A stretch of 64,000 nucleotides of DNA from Paludibacter jiangxiensis (GTDB taxonomy: Bacteria; Bacteroidota; Bacteroidia; Bacteroidales; Paludibacteraceae): contig CAMDGD010000005.1 in assembly GCA_945897785.1 (NCBI GenBank), forward strand, positions 1 to 64,000, read 5' to 3'. How positions within the stretch are numbered: position 1 is the first letter of the stretch; every line of letters starts with the position of its first letter. The translations under genes and the position numbers were made by a program. The notes below the pieces were generated by a model that was not told the DNA's origin, did not search any database, and worked only from the letters and a program-made list of their open reading frames with translations. Below, piece by piece: positions 30,845-31,789 of the stretch.

Positions 30845-31789
30845 ATGAGTTATCAACCTGCTATACCCAATCAACAAGGCATACAAATTATTTCCAATAT
30901 ATCGGTAGAAAGTTTAGTGCCGTATATTGATTGGCGTTTCTTTTTTATGGCTTGGAAATTAACCGGAAAGTATGATGGGATGGATGCTGTATGCGATTGT
31001 CAATCATGTCAAGTAGGCTGGTTGCATCAATTTCCCGAGGCTGACAGAGCAAAGGCAAAAGAGGCTTTAAGCTTGTATAAAGATGCACGACAAATGCTTA
31101 AGGATATGGTACATCAGCAGGCTTTTTCTGTGAAAGGAGTTGTAGGTATTTTTCCTGCTGTATCAGAAAAAGAGGGCATCAGTTTTTTTTATCAAGATAA
31201 AAAAATAGTTGTTGCCACTTTGCGTCAGCAAGAATTTAAAAAAGAGGGCATTTATTATTCTTTATCCGATTTTATTTCGCCAAAAAATGATTATGCAGGT
31301 ACTTTCGCTGTTACCGTGCATGGTGCCGAAGCTATGGCTAAGGTGTTCGATAAAGAGGACGATACCTATAATTCAATTTTAGTAAAAACCCTTGCCGATC
31401 GCTTGGCTGAGGCAGCTGCTGAATGGATTCACGAAAAAGTACGGAAAGAAATATGGGGGTATGCTAAAGACGAAGATATTAGTATTGAGGATATGTTGAA
31501 AGTGCGGTATTCGGGTATTCGTCCTGCTGTAGGTTATCCTTCTTTACCCGATCAATCAATTATTTTTGATTTACAGCCTATCTTGCCTTTCGATACAATT
31601 GGCATAAGCCTAACCGAAAATGGGGCTATGTTCCCTAATGCTTCTGTTTGCGGATTACTTATTTCTCATCCTAAATCGCAGTATTTTAACATTGGGAAAA
31701 TTGATATTGAACAACTTGGCGATTATGCTAAACGGAGAGGAAAATCACCCGGTGAGATAAAAAAATGGTTAGCTCAGAATTTGAGTTAA
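30845..31789 (+). CDS. Stand-alone MetH activation (AdoMet-binding) domain protein
   Basis: VPYIDWRFFFMAWKLTGKY; LADRLAEAAAEWIHEKVRKEIWGYAKDEDISIEDMLKVRYSGIRPAVGYPSLPDQ; IGISLTENGAMFPNASVCGLLISHPKSQYFNIGKIDIEQLGDYAKRRG = C-terminal activation domain of cobalamin-dependent methionine synthase. Confidence 0.88.
   Translation: MSYQPAIPNQQGIQIISNISVESLVPYIDWRFFFMAWKLTGKYDGMDAVCDCQSCQVGWLHQFPEADRAKAKEALSLYKDARQMLKDMVHQQAFSVKGVVGIFPAVSEKEGISFFYQDKKIVVATLRQQEFKKEGIYYSLSDFISPKNDYAGTFAVTVHGAEAMAKVFDKEDDTYNSILVKTLADRLAEAAAEWIHEKVRKEIWGYAKDEDISIEDMLKVRYSGIRPAVGYPSLPDQSIIFDLQPILPFDTIGISLTENGAMFPNASVCGLLISHPKSQYFNIGKIDIEQLGDYAKRRGKSPGEIKKWLAQNLS

Follow-up and report, generated by a model that had tools for sequence, protein, structure and literature searches.

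A gene at positions 30845..31789 of the plus strand encodes a 314-aa protein recognisable as a free-standing activation (AdoMet-binding reactivation) domain of cobalamin-dependent methionine synthase (MetH). It lies in the window, i.e., the whole 64,000-nucleotide stretch of DNA that was analysed, which belongs to contig C5. The locus raises the question of where the rest of the enzyme is encoded and which corrinoid protein such a domain would serve. The first-pass annotation had offered two options: MetH could be split across the genome, with this protein acting as a reactivator in trans, or the domain could serve another corrinoid enzyme.

Domain content and AdoMet site of the 314-aa protein

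The open reading frame was intact, started with ATG and carried every motif quoted in the first-pass annotation, which had described the product as essentially only the AdoMet-binding reactivation domain. This description was borne out by a Pfam search, in which PF02965 scored 322 bits (E 4e-96) against residues 21-299, with positions 2-273 of the 273-position profile aligned; no other domain scored above its cut-off. Such a full-length match above the curated cut-off of 25 bits places the protein in the MetH activation domain family. Residues 2-313 aligned to 1MSK, the activation domain of E. coli MetH, with 221 bits, and the protein matched positions 925-1229 of the full-length MetH model NF007024 (1234 positions). 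Judged from its sequence, the protein is the MetH activation domain and nothing more. The annotation had also claimed that no other MetH domains were encoded nearby; for the homocysteine and B12 parts this held for contig C5, from which PF02574, PF02607 and PF02310 were absent.

In 1MSK, AdoMet is contacted by Asp946, Glu1101, Tyr1130, Arg1134, Tyr1139, Tyr1189 and Tyr1190, the last of which is Phe in other sequences (PMC1282579). In the alignment, these positions were occupied by D29, E193, Y222, R226, Y231, Y280 and F281, respectively, i.e., the 314-aa protein carried the AdoMet-binding residues that characterise the PF02965 family. The GIRPAVGY segment of the AdoMet site (31514..31537, plus strand) contains R226, P227, A228 and Y231, equivalent to E. 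coli Arg1134, Pro1135, Ala1136 and Tyr1139 (PMC1282579, PMC12272874), and its R, P, A and Y were invariant in all 31 aligned sequences. In the RPA segment of the human enzyme, Arg1172 and Ala1174 are predicted AdoMet contacts (PMC12272874). Given these contact residues and the invariant RPA, the protein looks competent to bind AdoMet.

Ten homologues went into a structure model (mean pLDDT 76.6, pTM 0.79), which matched solved activation domains, including AdoMet-bound 6BM5 (TM 0.71), and a structure search with it returned no match beyond solved activation domains at a significant E-value. Because the AdoMet loops (residues 221-237) were poorly modelled, only the overall fold was used.

The remaining domains of MetH in the genome

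The genome to which the window belongs (G000, 1.91 Mb) was about 86% complete, and the absences reported for it are therefore provisional. The genome-wide profile search returned a single PF02965 protein, the 314-aa window protein, and a single protein with PF02574 (homocysteine methyltransferase). The latter was the product of a four-domain metH gene on contig C38 (L003:5406-8147, minus strand); it was 913 aa long, ended at a normal stop and contained PF02574, PF00809, PF02607 and PF02310, and PF02965 was absent from it. The PF02965 and PF02574 genes were unlinked, lying on separate contigs. The C38 MetH matched positions 10-919 of NF007024 and the window protein matched the segment from 925 onwards; therefore, the break corresponds to the linker that joins the activation domain to the B12-binding domain. 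Judged by sequence, the two proteins together make up one complete MetH, cut in this linker.

The annotation had named a genome search for metH modules as the check on its reading, and the main MetH that was found indeed lacked the C-terminal activation domain. A complete MetH elsewhere, combined with loss of the AdoMet-binding residues, had been named as evidence against it; instead, the C38 MetH was without the domain, and the residues were retained in the window protein. The possibility of another, complete MetH in this genome was likewise rejected, since the only PF02965 found was that of the window gene.

MTHFR was present in the genome. MetE was not detected in the search of this about 86% complete genome, and the idea that MetE was the real methionine synthase was rejected on this ground. 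The same search detected no RamA-type reactivator (RACo_C_ter domain), and this alternative was rejected likewise. No free flavodoxin of the standard type was found in the genome; the sole Flavodoxin_1 match was a flavorubredoxin-like protein.

The neighbours of the window gene were purD and genes for a glycosyltransferase, a DoxX protein, a pectic acid lyase and a DUF5686 protein, all unrelated to B12. Operon context was rejected as a functional clue, as none of these neighbours had a B12 connection. The pectic acid lyase gene (PF09492, 31821-32933) lay directly downstream of the window gene and was conserved in two relatives, as was that of the neighbouring DUF5686 protein; the neighbourhood was partly syntenic in two relatives, at L043 and L044. 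No B12 or SAM riboswitch was found near either gene: the window yielded only tRNAs, and there was none in L003. On contig C38, queG (epoxyqueuosine reductase; Fer4_16, QueG_DUF1730; L003:4453-5397, minus strand) was located 8 bases downstream of metH on the same strand. QueG is also B12-dependent.

Distribution of the free-standing domain

Close named relatives were Paludibacteraceae MAGs. PF02965 was present in 44 of the 61 family genomes; it was free-standing in 31 (274-356 aa) and fused in 10 (1093-1233 aa), and of the remaining three, two were short forms of 210 aa and one, in G040, was a 461-aa frame interrupted by a stop. A separate PF02574 gene was found in 30 of the 31 free-standing genomes, in a frame of 915-1114 aa in 23 of them and of 352-405 aa in the other seven (G018, G025, G032, G043, G047, G053 and G059). 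The short PF02574 frames of these seven genomes suggest that their MetH is split into three or more pieces. Across the family, 43 genomes had PF02965 together with PF02574 and 15 had neither (Fisher p = 3e-11 with genomes counted as independent, a value which overstates independence because the family genomes are related).

In other families of the order, most strong PF02965 matches were in frames above 1180 aa, and the free-standing form is therefore concentrated in this family. A further free-standing case was seen in family f2 (339 aa, G290). Many genomes of the order also encoded short proteins of 200-270 aa with a partial PF02965 match. At two family loci (G011:C36 and G042:C20), a frame of about 785 aa contained a PF02574 match, and a 210-aa PF02965 protein was encoded about 90 bases away from this match, an arrangement that recalls TM0268/TM0269 of Thermotoga.

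The free-standing proteins formed one strongly supported group (100/99) in a tree of 68 rows; L013 and L016, fused MetH proteins from a single genus, fell into it as well. The activation domain of these two fused proteins carried the CxxC insert described below. They represent either a re-fusion or the ancestral state.

Role of the 314-aa protein and of its cysteine insert

The protein very probably belongs to a cobalamin-dependent methionine synthase encoded by two genes, as its trans-acting reactivation subunit. This reading is favoured because MetE, a RamA/RACo-type reactivator and another methyl-B12 protein were all not found in the about 86% complete genome. The joint occurrence of PF02965 and PF02574 in the family, the fold match to 6BM5 and the published precedents described below also speak for it; the lack of linkage between the two genes and of a standard free flavodoxin counts against it. 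Of the two options offered at the outset, the split MetH thus gained support, the sole other MetH having the other four domains. In the established mechanism, cob(II)alamin is reduced and then methylated by AdoMet in the activation conformation of MetH (PMC10567725). By analogy, when cob(I)alamin of the C38 MetH oxidises to inactive cob(II)alamin, the 314-aa protein would dock over the B12 domain in trans, the cobalt would be reduced by an electron donor, and AdoMet bound on the 314-aa protein would re-methylate it to methylcobalamin.

That the domain serves a corrinoid methyltransferase other than MetH is very improbable. In favour of that reading, the gene lies a long way from metH, and the adjacent DoxX, pectic acid lyase and DUF5686 genes have no methionine link; against it, the only PF02607 (methyltransferase-type B12 cap) of the genome was that of MetH, and PF02965 and MetH come and go together across the family genomes. 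The remaining PF02310 proteins were methylmalonyl-CoA mutase and a weak B12/radical-SAM match, so the annotation's second option was left with no candidate enzyme. Methylmalonyl-CoA mutase uses adenosyl-B12. The isolation of the gene, alone and unlinked to metH, would also fit a decaying remnant or an assembly artefact of a formerly fused MetH, but this is extremely unlikely: the frame is intact, the AdoMet residues are conserved, the free-standing forms cluster with strong tree support, and the adjoining genes are partly conserved in two relatives. Moreover, the recurrence of the free-standing form in 31 of the 44 PF02965-bearing family genomes is the observation that had been named as refuting a remnant.

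The annotation had singled out CDCQSC as a notable extra near the N-terminus, and this motif (residues 50-55, codons at 30992-31009) sits within a lineage-specific stretch of about 20 inserted residues (approximately 30974..31036, plus strand), which the E. coli domain 1MSK lacks and in which the model predicted a helix (residues 53-60). The insert of the free-standing clade could bind metal or act in redox chemistry and so make up for the lost covalent link to MetH, for example by docking the reactivator on MetH or passing electrons to the cobalt; this is improbable. A trans-acting reactivator with such an additional metal- or redox-linked function in its CxxC insert is, as a whole, unlikely too. 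Among 30 family sequences, Cys52 was kept in 21 and Cys55 in 22, the fused L013 and L016 among them, which favours a function. However, the motif was absent or broken in nine, among them free-standing L012, L024, L029, L030, L031 and L032, the extra first cysteine (Cys50) occurred in only 15, and some family sequences lacked the insert itself. The CxxC core was present in most free-standing relatives and lost in several, and because these free-standing members do without it, it is not essential to the family. It is a lineage feature that is dispensable for the basic function.

If the 314-aa protein acts as the reactivation subunit of such an enzyme, what looks like an odd orphan is simply the other half of an ordinary methionine synthase, and the truncated-looking MetH on contig C38 gives no ground for calling the organism a methionine auxotroph. 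A natural two-part MetH would also be a handy system for studying how an activation domain finds the B12 domain when untethered.

Comparison with known systems

Bacteroides is already known to have this two-gene arrangement, which is ordinary for the group and not new. In the split MetH of Bacteroides thetaiotaomicron, BT0249 is the reactivation protein and BT0180 the four-domain protein (GapMind, PMC7311316). The present pair resembles them in that the reactivation domain stands alone in one protein and the other four domains are in a second protein without PF02965; the organism is different, and orthology to BT0249 is suggested by domain layout and relatedness. The PF02965 domain can occur as a protein of its own in other bacteria as well (PMC5764234). 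The window protein shares full-length homology and the AdoMet-binding residues with the E. coli and human activation domains (1MSK, 6BM5, 2O2K), but those are fused to the C-terminus of MetH, whereas it is separate and carries the CDCQSC insert. According to the title of Huang et al. 2007 (in PMC7857596), the Thermotoga maritima MetH TM0268 needs TM0269 for reactivation, and to the extent that this title tells, the activation domain is separately encoded there too. However, TM0269 is far smaller (its solved chain, 1J6R, has 197 residues), with 13% identity over the fold alignment, and is encoded downstream of its MetH, whereas the window gene is unlinked to metH; the window gene is therefore not of the TM0269 type, a short domain encoded beside MetH.
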